Position numbers and translations under genes: made by a program | Shown here: piece after piece, positions 1 to 5,787 of the stretch | How the letters are laid out: each line of letters opens with the position of its first letter | Numbering within the stretch: the first letter of the stretch is position 1 | The notes under the pieces: generated by a model | The model's database searches: none | What the model was told of the DNA's origin: nothing | What the model saw: the letters and a program-made list of their open reading frames with translations, nothing else | NCBI GenBank assembly: GCA_020061125.1 | Contig: JAGUYV010000075.1 | Coordinates: 1-6,889 of the forward strand | Origin: a bacterium | Lineage (GTDB): Bacteria; UBP15; UBA6099; DSWB01 | Direction: 5' to 3' | DNA length: 6,889 nucleotides

Positions 1-290
1 ACGCGCTTGACCGCGCCCTGCGCCGCCTGCTCGTTCCCATCTATCCCTTCCTCAAGCATGTGCGCCTCATGCGCTACGGCGTGCAGAACTCCACCAGCAG
101 CACCTCGTCCGAAGTCGAAGTCTTCATCCTCGCCAGCAACAAGCACGGAAAGCTCTACTTTTCCGAAGTTACCTCGGTGAGCGTGATCGAAGCCTCGTTC
201 TTCGCTCTGGCCAACATATACAACCGTTATTTCAAGGATGATTACGAGCAGAAAGCCGCACAATCCTCCGGTAAAAAGCAAGACGGTTAA
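1..290 (+). CDS. C-terminal end of a 2-isopropylmalate / citramalate synthase family protein (5' partial)
   Basis: Only the last 95 codons are present. The frame is open from base 3 and ends at TAA 288-290. The translation begins ALDRALRRLLVPIYPFLKHV, followed by VRLMRYGV, an alternating beta-strand segment (EVEVFILAS) and a final helix containing VIEASFFALANIYNRYF. This order resembles the C-terminal regulatory (LeuA dimer) domain of LeuA and especially CimA-type synthases, where ALDxALRKAL, VRLxDYKV and IIEASWxALxD occupy the same places. Such enzymes condense acetyl-CoA with a 2-keto acid at the head of leucine or isoleucine synthesis, and this domain carries feedback control. The adjacent ilvD supports that pathway. 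The catalytic TIM barrel is outside the window, so CimA, LeuA and homocitrate-synthase-like enzymes cannot be told apart. A GTG at base 60 is an internal codon, not the start. Confidence 0.72.
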   Translation, partial: ALDRALRRLLVPIYPFLKHVRLMRYGVQNSTSSTSSEVEVFILASNKHGKLYFSEVTSVSVIEASFFALANIYNRYFKDDYEQKAAQSSGKKQDG

Positions 291-321
291 CTCTTTGTAC
301 ATGAGAGAAATGGATCGCAAT

Positions 322-325
322 GGAG
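322..325 (+). promoter_or_regulatory. Probable ribosome binding site for ilvD
   Basis: GGAG lies 8 bases before the GTG at 334. It is the best-spaced Shine-Dalgarno-like sequence near any of the candidate ilvD starts (ATG 238, ATG 301, ATG 310, GTG 334) and is the main reason for preferring GTG 334. Confidence 0.4.
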
Positions 326-333
326 CCAGACCC

Positions 334-1977
334 GTGAAGAAACCGAAAAGCAACGACATATTCGACGCCAAAGATTTCCCGGTCAGTTTTGTGAGGCGGT
401 CCGTGTTTCAGGGCACGGGCGAGGATGTGGACGAAATGGCCGGCAAGCCGCTGGTCGCGGTGGTGAATTCCCACACGGAGATGAACCCCGGGCACATGCA
501 TCTGGGCGCTCTCGCGGAGCGCGTGAAGCAGGGCGTGCGCGCTGCGGGCGGCGTGCCCTTCGAGTTCAATGTCCCGGCCCCCTGCGACGGCATCGCCATG
601 GGACACCGCGGCATGAAGTACATCCTGGCCCAGCGCGATCTCATCGCCGACCTCGTGGAAACGCATGTGCGCAGCATGCGCTTCGACGCCGTTGTCATGA
701 TCGCAAGCTGCGACAAGATCGTGCCCGGCATGATCATCGCGGCCGCGCGCCTGGACCTGCCCGCCATCTTCATCACAGGCGGGCCGAACGCCATGGGCAT
801 CCGCTTCAGCCCCGGATTCAAGGGCAGCATCGCGCACAAGGACTACGACAACTCCATGGACAAGTTCGCCACGGCCACCTGCGCCACCTGCGGCTCGTGC
901 GAAATCATGGGAACCGCAAACACCTTCCAGTGCATGACCGAAGCCCTGGGCCTGTCCCTGCCCGGTTCGGCCACGATCCCGGCGTTCCACGCGGACAAGC
1001 TGCTGTTCGCGCGACGCGCGGGCGCGCGCGCCGTGGCCATGATCGAGCAGGAACTCACCGCCCGTAAAATCATCACGCCGCAGGCCCTGGAGAACGCGCT
1101 GGCCGTGGACCTGGCCATAGGCGGCTCAACCAACGCTGCGCTGCATCTGCCCGCTATCGCACATGCCATCGGCGCGTCGCTTCCGCTCTCAAAGTTCAAT
1201 GAATTCAACAAACGGATTCCCACAATCTGCGGCATCGCGCCCAACGGGCGCCACGGCCTGACCGACCTTCATGTCGCGGGCGGCATTCCGGCCGTGATGA
1301 AGGTTATCGCCGCGGATCTTCACGGAGACACGCTCTGCGTAAACGGCAAAACCGTTGCGGACATCGTGAAAACCGCGCGCATATTGAATGCGGAAGTCAT
1401 CCCCCCGCGGGACACGCCGCATCTGCCCGAAGGCGGCACCGTGGCGCTGTTCGGCAACCTCGCGCCCGACGGTTCGGTGATTAAACAGTCGGCCGTGGCT
1501 GAAGACATGCGCGTGTTTCAGGGGCCGGCGCGGGTGTTCGATTCCGAAGCGGACTGCCTGACGGCCATACGCGGGATGAAGCTCAAGGAGGGCGAGGTTC
1601 TGGTCATCCGCTACGAGGGGCCGCGCGGCGGTCCGGGCATGCCGGAAATGCTGGCCGTGACCATGGCCCTGGACCTGGGCGGGTACAAGAAAGTCGCGCT
1701 GGTCACGGACGGCCGGTTCTCGGGCGCCACCTCCGGCCCGTGCGTGGGGCATGTGTCGCCCGAGGCCTATTGCGGCGGCCCACTGGCCGTTCTGCAGGAC
1801 GGCGACATCGTGTCCATAGACATTCCCGGCCGGAGGCTTGATGTCGCGCTTTCGGAGCAGGAAATTCAGGACCGGCTGCGCAACTGGACGCCCGTGGAAA
1901 ACCCCGTGCCGCACGGATACATGGCTCGTTACCGCCGGCTCGTCGGCTCCGCGGCGCACGGCGCGGTATTGGATTAA
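334..1977 (+). CDS. ilvD: Dihydroxy-acid dehydratase (IlvD/Edd family)
   Basis: This enzyme dehydrates 2,3-dihydroxy-3-methyl acids to 2-keto acids, a shared step of valine, isoleucine and leucine synthesis in the cytoplasm, using an iron-sulfur cluster and Mg. From the GTG start it is 547 aa, normal for the shorter family members. Landmarks are VAVVNSHTEMNPGH (about 41-54), CDGIAMGH with Mg-ligand D85 (84-91), SCDK with cluster ligand C126 and K128 (125-128), CGSCEIMGTANT with ligand C189, GPRGGPGMPEM (429-439) and DGRFSGATSGPC with the catalytic serine S463. The first cysteine of [2Fe-2S]-type enzymes is valine here, as in E. coli-type IlvD. The start is uncertain. GTG 334 has GGAG at good spacing and places the conserved RRS at 20-22, ATG 310 or 301 would add 8 or 11 residues, and ATG 238 would overlap the preceding gene. 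Related sugar-acid dehydratases are a less likely alternative, given the neighbouring synthase. Confidence 0.93.
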   Translation: MKKPKSNDIFDAKDFPVSFVRRSVFQGTGEDVDEMAGKPLVAVVNSHTEMNPGHMHLGALAERVKQGVRAAGGVPFEFNVPAPCDGIAMGHRGMKYILAQRDLIADLVETHVRSMRFDAVVMIASCDKIVPGMIIAAARLDLPAIFITGGPNAMGIRFSPGFKGSIAHKDYDNSMDKFATATCATCGSCEIMGTANTFQCMTEALGLSLPGSATIPAFHADKLLFARRAGARAVAMIEQELTARKIITPQALENALAVDLAIGGSTNAALHLPAIAHAIGASLPLSKFNEFNKRIPTICGIAPNGRHGLTDLHVAGGIPAVMKVIAADLHGDTLCVNGKTVADIVKTARILNAEVIPPRDTPHLPEGGTVALFGNLAPDGSVIKQSAVAEDMRVFQGPARVFDSEADCLTAIRGMKLKEGEVLVIRYEGPRGGPGMPEMLAVTMALDLGGYKKVALVTDGRFSGATSGPCVGHVSPEAYCGGPLAVLQDGDIVSIDIPGRRLDVALSEQEIQDRLRNWTPVENPVPHGYMARYRRLVGSAAHGAVLD

Positions 1978-2104
1978 GCGCCCCGTCAAAACAAGCACGC
2001 GCGGCCCGCAGATTATATTTTCATTGTTGTCATCCCGCCGACAGGAACATCTTTAGAATTATTGTTGTTATGCGAATGGGAAGATTCTTGGGCATGGGGG
2101 CCGT
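1978..2104 (+). promoter_or_regulatory. AT-rich intergenic spacer, possible promoter of the receiver/HD-GYP/FapA unit
   Basis: This is the largest gap in the window and it is clearly AT-richer than its surroundings between about 2009 and 2072. Promoter-like hexamers are TTGTCA at 2027-2032 and TAGAAT at 2054-2059, each one mismatch from the sigma-70 consensus. Their 21-base spacing is too long for a standard promoter, while TTTAGA at 2052 gives 19. TATATT at 2014-2019 has no matching -35 box. I see no convincing hairpin-plus-T-tract terminator for ilvD here. A promoter is inferred mainly from position and composition. Confidence 0.3.
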
Positions 2105-2602
2105 ATGCCGGGCGCCGCGGAAGGCAAGATCGAAACCGGACTCAAGCACAGGGTGCTTGCGTACACCACGGATGTGGCCACGCGCTATCTGCTCGACATT
2201 TGCATAGATACCGGAAAATTTGAATTGCAGTACGCCAACACATCGGAAGACGCTTTCTCCGCGGCCGAGAAAAAGGGCGTTGACATCCTGGTGCTGGACA
2301 GCTCGGACGGGCAGCTCGGCGCGGACATTGTGCGCCGCATCGCCGATGCCAAGTGGAAGCACCTGGTGCGCGTGGTCCTGCTCATGGACAAGGCGCCCAA
2401 GCCCGGCAGCAACCACATGCAGCCCTTCGGCCCCTTCTGTATGCTCGAGGCGTTTTTCACCCGCCAGCGCCTCAACGCCACCCTCAACGAATCGCTCACT
2501 ATCAAGGACACCGGAAGCCGCGTGCGCGCGGACGACAAGTTCTTCGATGTCACCATCTTCAACAAACGCAGCGCGGATCAGAAGCAGGAACCCGAAGCAT
2601 AA
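2105..2602 (+). CDS. Small receiver-like (degenerate REC) protein
   Basis: This 165-aa protein looks like a single response-regulator receiver domain with no output domain. RVLAYTTD (16-23) matches strand 1, the A-T-S-E-D-A-F helix region near 44-54 matches the usual 'A.dg.eAl' segment, and DILVLDSSDG (60-69) matches strand 3 with D65 at the phospho-acceptor position. VRVVLLMD (88-95) matches strand 4 and QPFGPFCMLEAF (106-117) matches the usual KPF segment. The acidic pair after strand 1 is T21-T22, the strand-4 Thr/Ser is M94 and the strand-5 Lys is Q106, so normal Mg-dependent phosphorylation is doubtful. Residues 135-165 are a polar, probably loose tail. ATG 2105 follows a G run (2096-2100) by 4 bases and no other in-frame ATG lies just upstream. 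It lies 27 bases before the HD-GYP gene, suggesting co-expression and perhaps physical partnership. Receiver homology is from fold pattern only; the protein could be annotated as hypothetical. Confidence 0.75.
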   Translation: MPGAAEGKIETGLKHRVLAYTTDVATRYLLDICIDTGKFELQYANTSEDAFSAAEKKGVDILVLDSSDGQLGADIVRRIADAKWKHLVRVVLLMDKAPKPGSNHMQPFGPFCMLEAFFTRQRLNATLNESLTIKDTGSRVRADDKFFDVTIFNKRSADQKQEPEA

Positions 2603-2616
2603 CGGGATTTCGCGCT

Positions 2617-2626
2617 GGAAGCAGGA
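2617..2626 (+). promoter_or_regulatory. Ribosome binding site for the HD-GYP gene
   Basis: GGAAGCAGGA precedes ATG 2630. It offers GGAAG about 8 bases upstream or AGGA 3 bases upstream. It is one of the clearest Shine-Dalgarno-like sequences in the window and supports ATG 2630. Confidence 0.5.
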
Positions 2627-2629
2627 TCC

Positions 2630-3766
2630 ATGCCCGAGGAAAAAAAAGACAAGCGCGTCAAAGTCGTGGTGGGTGAGGAACTGCCCCGGGACATCACCTC
2701 CATGGACGGGTCCGTGGTGCTGTGCCGCAAGGGCACCCTGGTGACGCCCGAACTTATCGAGCGCCTGTCCAACTGGATTGTGGAGGAGGAGCCGCGCCTC
2801 ACGGACGGCGAGGAGCGCCCCAAACGCAAGGCCGCGCCGAGCCGCATGCGCGACGACATGCTCCGCCGCCTGGAATTCGAGCAGATCGTTTCCGAAAAAA
2901 CACGCGAGAGCCTGGAAAAGGGCGCCGAGAGCTTTTTCGGCGGCGTGACAAAAGATAAAAAGGGCGGCCGCATGGACCTGGCCGAACTCGAAGACGCCAT
3001 CCAGGAACTTGTGCAGGGCACCCCGGACAACCCCGATGTGCCGGTCAAACTCTTCGAACTCAAAAAGCACTCCTCGTACATGTACCAGCATTCCATCGAG
3101 TGCGGCATTCTCGCGTCCTTCGTGTCCACCACTTTGAACTACCATCCCATGGAAGTGAACAATTTCTCCATGTCCATGATGGTTCACGACACGGGCATCC
3201 TCGAGGTGCCGCTGGAGGTGCTGGACAAGGACGGCCCGCTGGCGGATGACGAATGGCAACGCATCAAGGGCCACACGCGCCGCGGCTTCGAGGTGCTCAA
3301 GCGCGTTCCGGGCATTGATCCCCTGGCCCTGCTCATGGCCATGGGGCACCACGCCTACGCCGACGGCTCCGGGTATCCGCAGGAGGTGGACTTCAACGAG
3401 TTGCCGCCCCTGGTGCATCTGGGCGCGGTCATCAACCACTTCGAGGCCCTCACCTCGGAGCGCCCCTACCGGCCCGCGTATTCCCTGTACGACGCCATGC
3501 GCATCATTCTGCGCCAGCGCGAGAAATACCACCCTGCGGCGCTCGAAAATTTTGTGCGCGTTGTCGGCATCTATCCCATCTCCACCTTCGTCCAACTTAA
3601 CACCGGCGAGGTCGGTGTCGTGGTGCGCAACAACCAGGACGGCCTGTTCCTGCCAGAAGTCAAGCTCGTGCTCGATCAGACCGGAAAGCCCTATCAAAAA
3701 GAAATTATCGTCAACCTGCTCGAAGAGCAGGATCGCGTCATCACCGGCGTGCGCGAATCCATTTAG
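2630..3766 (+). CDS. HD-GYP domain protein with altered active-site residues (c-di-GMP phosphodiesterase family)
   Basis: The 378-aa protein has an N-terminal strand-rich segment (residues 10-52, including a DGSVVLCRKGTLVT turn) typical of the leader before HD-GYP domains. A charged linker follows (53-115), then an HD-GYP domain (about 145-320) and a short beta-rich tail (320-378). Family members hydrolyse c-di-GMP with a two- or three-metal centre. Visible ligands and motifs are H154, HD at 186-187, H215, HH at 240-241, DGSGYP at 245-250 and LTSERPYRP at 274-282. Three canonical positions differ: HDIGK reads HDTGI (Lys to I190), HHE reads HHA (A242), and the Asp of the 'aDxfDA' segment is N269, with E272 replacing the second Asp. 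The GYP signature is intact. Activity may be reduced, changed or lost, leaving ligand binding. No membrane segment is evident. It sits between the receiver-like gene and fapA with gaps of 27 and 41 bases. Confidence 0.92.
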   Translation: MPEEKKDKRVKVVVGEELPRDITSMDGSVVLCRKGTLVTPELIERLSNWIVEEEPRLTDGEERPKRKAAPSRMRDDMLRRLEFEQIVSEKTRESLEKGAESFFGGVTKDKKGGRMDLAELEDAIQELVQGTPDNPDVPVKLFELKKHSSYMYQHSIECGILASFVSTTLNYHPMEVNNFSMSMMVHDTGILEVPLEVLDKDGPLADDEWQRIKGHTRRGFEVLKRVPGIDPLALLMAMGHHAYADGSGYPQEVDFNELPPLVHLGAVINHFEALTSERPYRPAYSLYDAMRIILRQREKYHPAALENFVRVVGIYPISTFVQLNTGEVGVVVRNNQDGLFLPEVKLVLDQTGKPYQKEIIVNLLEEQDRVITGVRESI

Positions 3767-3807
3767 TACGCGCCGGGAGCAAATAAACCGGATCGGCCGT
3801 TTCCGCC

Positions 3808-5787
3808 ATGAACCTGGACCTGCTGAAAAAGAAACAGGATGCGATCTTCCAGATCGAGGCTGTGCCCGTGGCGCCCAAGCAGCGCAATTTCCGCGTGCAG
3901 GTGAGCGTTGCCGACCGCGACATGTCCGCGTTCGTGAGGATCATTCCCGTGGGCAAGCCCGAGGAGCATGTGCCGGTCACGGAAGTGGACATTCTGCTCA
4001 AGCTGTACTCCGCGGGCGTGCGTCTCGGCATTGACTACGATCGCGTCGGGCAGATAGTGGCGCGCATGCAGTACAACAAAGATGTGCTTGTGGCCATCGG
4101 CGAGGAACCGATCAAGGGCGAACCGGCGCGGCTCGAGCCCAAAGTGCATCTCGAGGAATTCACCACCGCGGAGCTGCTCAAGCAGTTTCCGGGCCAGGAA
4201 ATCCGGCGCGGCGTGCCCGTGGATCTGGACGAGGTCATTGTTGAGAAGATACCGGCCACGATCGGCGTGCCCGGATACACCGTGCGCGGCCGCCGCATTG
4301 ACCCCGAGCCGGGTGACGATGTGCAATTCCAGTTCGGAGACGGCGTGCGCGTGAACGACGACAAAACCGCGCTCGTGGCCGCCATGCCCGGCATGGTTGG
4401 CCTGTCCAAAGACATGATCGGCGTCAAGGATGCCGAATACGAGCAGTGGAAAGCGGAGATCAAGCTGCGGCGCGACAACATGGAGGCCGTGCTCACCATC
4501 ATCCCCGGTCTCACAAAGCAGCCCGATTTCGACGAGTCCTGGTACCGCGAAATCCTGGATGACTACAACATAAAATTCGGCGCGGACCGCGACGGGCACC
4601 GGTTCATCCCCGACAAAGTGCGCGGTACTTATGTTCGCACCGTGGCCGAGGGCGAGCCGCCGCTCCCGGGCGAGGACGCAAAGCTCATCGAGCGCTACCG
4701 CGAGAGCGCGGACCCGGGACAGCGCATTTTCCCGGTGCAGGCCGGGCAGGTGATTGTGGAAAAGAAGCCGCCCGCCAAGGGTGCGCGGGGCCGCAATGTG
4801 TTGGACGAACCCGTGCAGCCCTCGCCGGGAAATGATTTCGATCTCGTTGCCGGACCCAATACCGCATTGAGCAGCGACGGGCTGAAGATCACGGCCACAG
4901 TGGACGGATTTGTGAGCCGCATCAAGGATGCCTGGACCGTGGCGCCGGCCATGCAGGTGGACCCCGCATCAGGCACGCTGCCGCGGCGCATCAACCACGA
5001 CGGCGTGGTGCGCGTACTCGGAAGCCTGCCCCGCGGGCACATGATCGTGGCCGCGCACCATGTGGAGATTCTGGGCGATGTGTCCGAAGCCGAGGTGGTT
5101 GCCGGCGGCACCCTGCATGTGCATGGCGCGGTCCAGGAGTGCATCCGCACCAAGGTGCAGTGCGGCGCGGACATGTATGTGGGATCGGCGCGGCGCGCGC
5201 GCCTGCGCGCCGACGGCGCGGTGTACATCAAGGAAGCCGCGCGCGAGTGCAACATCATTGCGGGCGGCGGCCTGTTCGGCGAAACCCCCAAAGCGTCCGT
5301 GGCCGGAGGCCGCACCGTGATCGGCAACGGCGCGGACATCGCCTCCATCGGCGCCGTGCCAAAAGTCGCCACCATCATCTACGCGGGCGTTCCCTATGTG
5401 CTCCGTGTGCGCTTCGAGCAGACCTCCCGCGAGGTCATGGCCCTGCAGCAGAAACTCGATCTTGTGAATGCGCCCCTGATCAATCTGCATAAGAAACTGC
5501 TGGCCAAGCAGATTTCCAAACAGGAAATTCTGATGTACCGCAAGCTCAAACTGGCGCGCGAAACCCTGACCGAACGCCTGCGCCTGCGCAGGGCTTTGTT
5601 TGAGAAGCTCAACGAAGCCGTACGCGCCACGAGCCGCAATTCGCGCGTGCGCGTCACGGACGCCGCATTCGCGGGCGCGGTCATCGCCATCGGCACGAGG
5701 CCCCACAAAATTGAGGTCCGCACCGCCAAGTCCGAATTCCACCTCGACGACGACGGCAAGCATGTCGTGGTCCGGAAATTTTCTTGA
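3808..5787 (+). CDS. fapA: FapA/DUF342 family protein, long form with duplicated N-terminal module
   Basis: The 659-aa protein matches the FapA (flagellar assembly protein A, DUF342) architecture. Module 1 (about 41-200) holds LYSAGVRLGIDYDRVGQIV, VLVAIGEEPIKGE, then GVPGYTVRGRRIDPEPGDD and VAAMPGMVGL. A second, more diverged copy (about 226-372) holds ILDDYNIKFGAD, TVAEGEPPLPGED, then GARGRNVLDEPVQPSPGND and ITATVDGFVSR. A right-handed beta-helix-like section follows (about 398-515), with short strands such as VEILGDVSEAEVVAGGTLHV. Next is a helical, probably coiled-coil arm (about 535-607), then the usual closing segment with FAGAVIAIGT (621-630). No signal peptide or membrane helix is visible. 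In Vibrio, FapA affects polar flagellar assembly; elsewhere its role is mostly unknown. An in-frame TAA at 3784 limits the start to ATG 3808, which lacks a clear Shine-Dalgarno (GGGAG at 3775-3779 is too far). It is probably translated from the same message as the HD-GYP gene. The symbol reflects family, not proven function. Confidence 0.9.
   Translation: MNLDLLKKKQDAIFQIEAVPVAPKQRNFRVQVSVADRDMSAFVRIIPVGKPEEHVPVTEVDILLKLYSAGVRLGIDYDRVGQIVARMQYNKDVLVAIGEEPIKGEPARLEPKVHLEEFTTAELLKQFPGQEIRRGVPVDLDEVIVEKIPATIGVPGYTVRGRRIDPEPGDDVQFQFGDGVRVNDDKTALVAAMPGMVGLSKDMIGVKDAEYEQWKAEIKLRRDNMEAVLTIIPGLTKQPDFDESWYREILDDYNIKFGADRDGHRFIPDKVRGTYVRTVAEGEPPLPGEDAKLIERYRESADPGQRIFPVQAGQVIVEKKPPAKGARGRNVLDEPVQPSPGNDFDLVAGPNTALSSDGLKITATVDGFVSRIKDAWTVAPAMQVDPASGTLPRRINHDGVVRVLGSLPRGHMIVAAHHVEILGDVSEAEVVAGGTLHVHGAVQECIRTKVQCGADMYVGSARRARLRADGAVYIKEAARECNIIAGGGLFGETPKASVAGGRTVIGNGADIASIGAVPKVATIIYAGVPYVLRVRFEQTSREVMALQQKLDLVNAPLINLHKKLLAKQISKQEILMYRKLKLARETLTERLRLRRALFEKLNEAVRATSRNSRVRVTDAAFAGAVIAIGTRPHKIEVRTAKSEFHLDDDGKHVVVRKFS

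Follow-up and report, generated by a model that had tools for sequence, protein, structure and literature searches.

In the candidate phylum UBP15, three consecutive genes encoding a pseudo-receiver, a divergent HD-GYP protein and a FapA/DUF342 protein are inherited and relocated as one unit. The trio was found in identical order and strand at 8 of 8 loci, distributed over 6 of the 7 UBP15 genomes and 5 flanking contexts, and a chance arrangement is excluded by its recurrence wherever the proteins occur. The trio is a new combination built from known kinds of signalling proteins, and the evidence suggests one signalling device that is separate from the flagellar FapA. The window analyzed here (6,889 nucleotides) is one whole contig (G000:C430) of a 4.1-Mb source genome that is 79% complete; its assignment to UBP15 is based on relatives of the same order with names such as UBP15_UBA6099 and ADurb.Bin236. 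The earlier note on this DNA had proposed such a module from the window alone, to be given up if relatives did not keep the genes together; the linkage is kept at every locus.

The 3 same-strand open reading frames are separated by gaps of 27 and 41 bases, and the coordinates previously assigned to them proved exact (Table 1). The spacer preceding them, with a GC content of 50.4% compared to 63.1% across the window, had been described as sizeable and AT-rich; it is indeed the largest non-coding stretch of the window, but not its lowest-GC stretch. A promoter scan gave no match to the sigma-70 consensus in this spacer, and the number of matches in a promoter and terminator scan of the window did not exceed that in shuffled sequences. 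The downstream boundary of the cassette is not sharp, because rlmD follows closely on the same strand. At the other end of the window (238-330), the ilvD open reading frame overlaps the 3' end of the leuA-like gene, and the true ilvD start is probably a downstream ATG (301 or later).

Table 1. Features of the window, with positions counted from its first nucleotide
Feature	Position	Strand	Remarks
leuA-like gene, 3' end	3-290		
ilvD	238-1977		As longest open reading frame
Spacer 5' of cassette, presumed promoter region	1978..2104	+	127 non-coding bases
Pseudo-receiver protein, 165 aa	2105..2602	+	Receiver fold and CheY4 profile match
D65 codon, equivalent to CheY D57	2297..2299	+	D in 8/8
C-terminal tail motif DTG[SC]RV[KR]xDxKF	2507..2542	+	Invariant in 8/8; pLDDT ~41, predicted disordered
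Divergent HD-GYP protein, 378 aa	2630..3766	+	Pfam HD_5 2.7e-18
HDTGI motif (H186, D187, I190)	3185..3199	+	Metal-binding HD kept, HDxGK lysine replaced
N269 and E272, equivalent to PmGH D305 and D308	3434..3445	+	PmGH alignment
FapA/DUF342 protein, 659 aa	3808..5787	+	Pfam FapA_N 2.8e-56, FapA 9e-33
First FapA_N domain	3895..4404	+	Residues 30-199 (Pfam)
Second FapA_N domain	4456..4923	+	FapA_N 3e-25 on the segment alone
FapA beta-solenoid, hairpin inside	4990..5751	+	Residues 395-648 (Pfam)
Helical hairpin within solenoid	5395-5634	+	Helices 530-565 and 571-609; solenoid resumes after
rlmD	from 5848	+	60 bases past fapA

The trio is present in 2 copies in both the window genome (G000, second copy on contig C263) and G006. 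For contig C320 of G006, which clusters with G001, misbinning is possible, and the FapA gene is cut by the contig end in C263 and C320. Across the 8 loci, the gaps range from −1 to 27 bases between the receiver and HD-GYP genes and from 21 to 41 bases between the HD-GYP and FapA genes, with one exception of 249. These counts come from incomplete genomes, the source genome included, with genes called by a simple codon-model script. Because 4 of the 8 loci (f3) are near-identical orthologues, the effective sampling is about 5 lineages, and among near-identical genomes conserved neighbors are to be expected even if the 3 genes were unrelated. Yet the 5 flanking contexts and the 2 within-genome copies retain exactly these 3 genes and nothing else, which makes such passive linkage barely credible. 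The f3 clade and the grouping of G006b with G001 are shared by the phylogenetic trees of the 3 genes, which have moderate support, but the placement of the G000 copies differs among them.

The distribution of the cassette is narrow. The receiver family profile matched solely at cassette loci, always beside the cassette, and gave no match in 380 of the 386 genomes. HD-GYP homologues above E 1e-40 were found in the window genome, 5 more genomes of the order and 1 outside the order. An alignment-based scan across 84,980 species, which rests on 2 short patterns, returned 6 loci only, all from UBP15, and a single-protein scan of genome contigs with the HD-GYP query gave no match.

The first gene product had been called receiver-like, and this assignment is borne out by its fold and family profile, although the Pfam Response_reg match is sub-threshold (E 0.15). 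The profile of the family, whose 8 orthologues are 32-43% identical to the window copy, matches CheY4 along its full length (E 6e-5). The AlphaFold model built with 8 homologues (mean pLDDT 68.5, with the alpha4 region poorly predicted) displays the receiver strand order and the (beta-alpha)5 receiver fold, with Z scores of 12-13 to many receivers; the KaiA N-domain and the KdpE REC domain are tied at the top (VIA Z 13.0, 119-126 residues). In the residue numbering of what we take to be the CheY sequence, the equivalents of D12/D13, T87, and K109 are gone in all 8 cassette receivers, which are therefore not ordinary phospho-receivers; judging from these residues, the usual phosphate acceptance should not occur. 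By contrast, receivers fused to other FapA proteins in the same genomes retain the full phosphorylation set. A receiver fold without this set is shared with the KaiA N-domain and similar pseudo-receivers, from which the cassette protein differs in retaining the D57 equivalent, in being a stand-alone protein and in its conserved C-terminal tail. The tail motif is unique to the receiver among the called genes of the cassette loci, and its invariance combined with predicted disorder suggests a candidate docking peptide.

The HD-GYP protein is the best-conserved member of the trio (51-57% identity), and its family profile matches PmGH (4mcw, 5.4e-19). All 8 cassette proteins carry the HD and HHxxxDGxGYP motifs, keeping the GYP equivalents and those of the 6 His/Asp metal ligands H189, H221, D222, H250, H276, and H277 (PmGH numbering as in a printed alignment segment). 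These features are shared with phosphodiesterases of the PmGH and RpfG type; unlike those, the cassette proteins have no fused receiver and lack the HDxGK lysine, the K225 equivalent being I, V, or L in 8/8, whereas it is K in 9 of the 11 non-cassette HD-GYP proteins compared. The D308 equivalent is E in 8/8 and the D305 equivalent is N in 6 and D in 2, so that the lysine and aspartates of HD-GYP phosphodiesterases are not found together in any cassette protein. The position of E185 is occupied by Y, as in the second, Y/F-type HD-GYP subfamily that lacks E185 (PMC4159591). In PmGH, the K225A and D308A mutations abolish activity, as does loss of the metal ligands, whereas D305A leaves some activity and mutants of the GYP motif retain most of it (PMC4159591). 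Since the lost lysine is essential for the phosphodiesterase activity of PmGH, c-di-GMP turnover by the cassette protein is uncertain and, from its residues, catalysis appears doubtful. Thus, of the suggestion that an atypical HD-GYP protein here handles c-di-GMP, the altered HD-GYP is confirmed, but turnover is in question. The window genome encodes a further altered HD-GYP-like protein (L003, G000:C154:19992-20720), in which K225 is replaced by L, D305 by E, and D308 by C.

Two catalytic readings of the HD-GYP protein have to be weighed. It could be a working phosphodiesterase for cyclic dinucleotides, with a specificity that may have changed; the pseudo-receiver and FapA would position or regulate it, bringing about a local drop in c-di-GMP at a FapA structure. 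The invariance of the metal ligands and GYP, the highest conservation within the trio, the activity retained by PmGH D305A (PMC4159591) and the catalytically complete state of L029, the nearest relative outside the phylum that shares its N-terminal layout, all fit such an enzyme; we consider it possible but would not expect it, given that the positions of the lysine and D308, at which PmGH does not tolerate alanine (PMC4159591), are altered in 8/8. L029 itself, the HD-GYP protein of G022, was rejected as a distant cassette, its neighborhood containing neither FapA nor a receiver. Alternatively, the HD domain might have been repurposed for a ligand other than a cyclic dinucleotide, turning the trio into a scaffold-bound nucleotide phosphohydrolase. 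The equivalents of the substrate contacts do drift among the cassette proteins (I294 to L; R314 to R, H, or K; K317 to R or S), but GYP and DGxGYP are kept in 8/8 and GGDEF enzymes are encoded in every genome, rendering this option quite improbable.

A non-catalytic role has a precedent in DvhD of Desulfovibrio, in which the HD-GYP domain acts as a non-hydrolyzing c-di-GMP receptor (PMC13090378). The cassette protein shares with DvhD an altered HD-GYP active site and the ligand-sensor role that we propose for it. However, DvhD is membrane-bound and contains PAS, and its HD and HH metal ligands are gone (PMC13090378), whereas the cassette protein keeps the ligands and has no PAS match.

The identification of the third gene product as FapA/DUF342 stands, with both Pfam domains far above the cut-offs. 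It shares with that family (Pfam PF03961 and PF20250; FapA of Vibrio and Borrelia) the FapA_N domain and the beta-solenoid, both evident from Pfam and from the structural model (mean pLDDT 89.7), which consists of an N-terminal helix, 2 FapA_N domains, the solenoid, and a helical hairpin. The C-domain of MinC (1hf2) superimposes on model residues 464-659 with a Z score of 9.1 (rmsd 2.0, 103 residues), as expected for a beta-solenoid; in a PDB sequence search, MinC matches were only weak. The 2 FapA_N halves match each other by BLASTP (E 1e-10), and 2 such stretches are also present in the cassette FapA proteins L025 and L026, but absent in 6/6 other FapA proteins scanned. Compared to the Vibrio and Borrelia proteins, the cassette FapA is thus distinguished by tandem FapA_N domains, a location outside a flagellar cluster and an operonic association with the pseudo-receiver and HD-GYP genes. 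Matches of the model to LpxA (rmsd 11) and of FapA_N to bL27-like proteins (Z ~8) were discounted, the DUF3426 entries returned by a DUF342 search belong to an unrelated family, and a plasmid search for FapA gave weak matches only.

The cassette FapA is not the flagellar FapA. In 5 genomes, including that of the window, a separate FapA gene (L052, L060, L067, L072, and L080) lies in a cluster with a MinD-type, FlhG-like ATPase and a sigma-28-like sigma factor, the place that a flagellar FapA would take; hence, the cassette protein more likely acts outside the flagellum or in an accessory capacity. The earlier note had seen no flagellar genes in the window and left a non-flagellar role open. 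None was recognized around any of the cassette loci, whose flanking genes were mostly assessed visually from the sequence, but the organism does have flagella, as FliG is found in all genomes of the phylum, that of the window included. The trio might still help to determine where flagella are placed or how many are made, like the FapA of Vibrio or Borrelia. FapA has featured in studies of the polar flagella of Vibrio (cited in PMC8789113), and the Borrelia FapA lies within a flagellar sub-module (PMC11607428), links that together with the ubiquity of FliG favor this explanation; in view of the separate FlhG/sigma-28-associated FapA and the flanks of the cassette, we regard it as improbable. 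GGDEF proteins are likewise encoded in 7/7 UBP15 genomes, so that c-di-GMP as well as flagella should be available in these cells, with no direct tie to the trio.

Other FapA neighborhoods recur across UBP15 genomes (gene identities by Pfam on representatives), each of the 7 genomes having 6-12 FapA matches, whereas FapA exceeds the cut-off in 13 of 53 other genomes. In 4 genomes, a FapA-REC fusion gene forms an operon with genes for Hpt and an HD-GYP protein (L059:3033-6841, L069:5287-9087, L073:5646-9446, and L085:3-3159), the latter being a catalytically complete GAF-GAF-HD-GYP protein in the representative scanned. These operons resemble the cassette in uniting FapA, receiver, and HD-GYP, but differ in the intact receiver fused to FapA, the Hpt gene and the complete active site. 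Another FapA-REC neighborhood contains CheX/CheB, and in 5 genomes FapA is divergent from a GGDEF gene, whose GGDEF score is weak and after which comes a gene for a TPR membrane protein (L062, L068, L078, L081, and L084). Among 386 genomes, full-length FapA-REC matches number 14 in UBP15 (plus 2 partial ones at contig ends) and 1 outside (G361), which reads through stops. An intact C-terminal receiver on FapA was seen at L051, L054, L056, L057, L059, L069, L070, L073, L074, L076, L082, and L085. FapA genes preceded by TPR genes and followed by a DUF1844 gene are conserved phylum-wide (L048, L058, L066, L071, L077, and L079). At about 40 FapA loci outside the phylum, a FliA-like sigma factor gene adjoins at several and no HD-GYP gene lies within ~1.5 kb. 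The link between FapA, receiver, and HD-GYP is thus seen at least twice in UBP15, in different forms. Among the indirect evidence, this is the strongest sign that the members of the trio work together. The FapA-REC fusions near Hpt and HD-GYP genes also lend independent support to the former idea that the receiver and HD-GYP proteins may be split partners acting with FapA, as does the linkage itself, with the correction that the receiver cannot be an ordinary phospho-receiver.

We infer that the trio most likely senses c-di-GMP or hydrolyzes it slowly, thereby controlling the FapA scaffold. Over the rival explanations we favor, if tentatively and with somewhat less than even confidence, a ligand-sensing HD-GYP protein, a phosphorylation-independent adaptor and a FapA scaffold. 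In this scheme, the HD-GYP protein would bind c-di-GMP and hydrolyze it poorly at most, whereas the pseudo-receiver would serve as a constitutive adaptor joining it to FapA through the invariant DTGxRVKxDxKF tail; the ligand state of the HD-GYP protein would then control assembly of the FapA solenoid or its recruitment of partners. The trio would correspond, in split form and without dependence on phosphorylation, to the FapA-REC/Hpt/GAF-GAF-HD-GYP operons of the same genomes. The ligand-sensing reading is supported by the conserved gene order, the confinement of the receiver to the cassette, the lack of HD-GYP genes near FapA loci outside the phylum, the existence of FapA-REC fusions, the altered HD-GYP active site and the loss of the phosphorylation residues in the receiver, as well as by the DvhD precedent (PMC13090378) and the presence of GGDEF proteins in all 7 genomes. 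It is weakened by the retention of 6 metal ligands and GYP, which is more than a pure receptor needs, by the conservative nature of the D308E replacement and the residual activity of PmGH D305A, and by the small number of effective lineages and the conflict between gene trees over the G000 copies. A bolder version, which we hold to be unlikely, is a soluble, phosphorylation-independent device in which an HD-GYP domain turned c-di-GMP receptor and a pseudo-receiver adaptor switch the assembly of a non-flagellar FapA filament, that is, a second-messenger-gated beta-helical cytoskeleton.

To our knowledge, a function has yet to be assigned to the majority of DUF342/FapA proteins, and a literature search for DUF342 together with HD-GYP found no paper. 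In UBP15, several of the FapA proteins adjoin or are fused with proteins of two-component or c-di-GMP signalling, and one set is always accompanied by just 2 partners, which provides a concrete hypothesis, namely, that FapA is the output of a receiver and an HD-GYP protein. If true, this would also add an HD-GYP protein that may be a sensor of its ligand instead of an enzyme degrading it.
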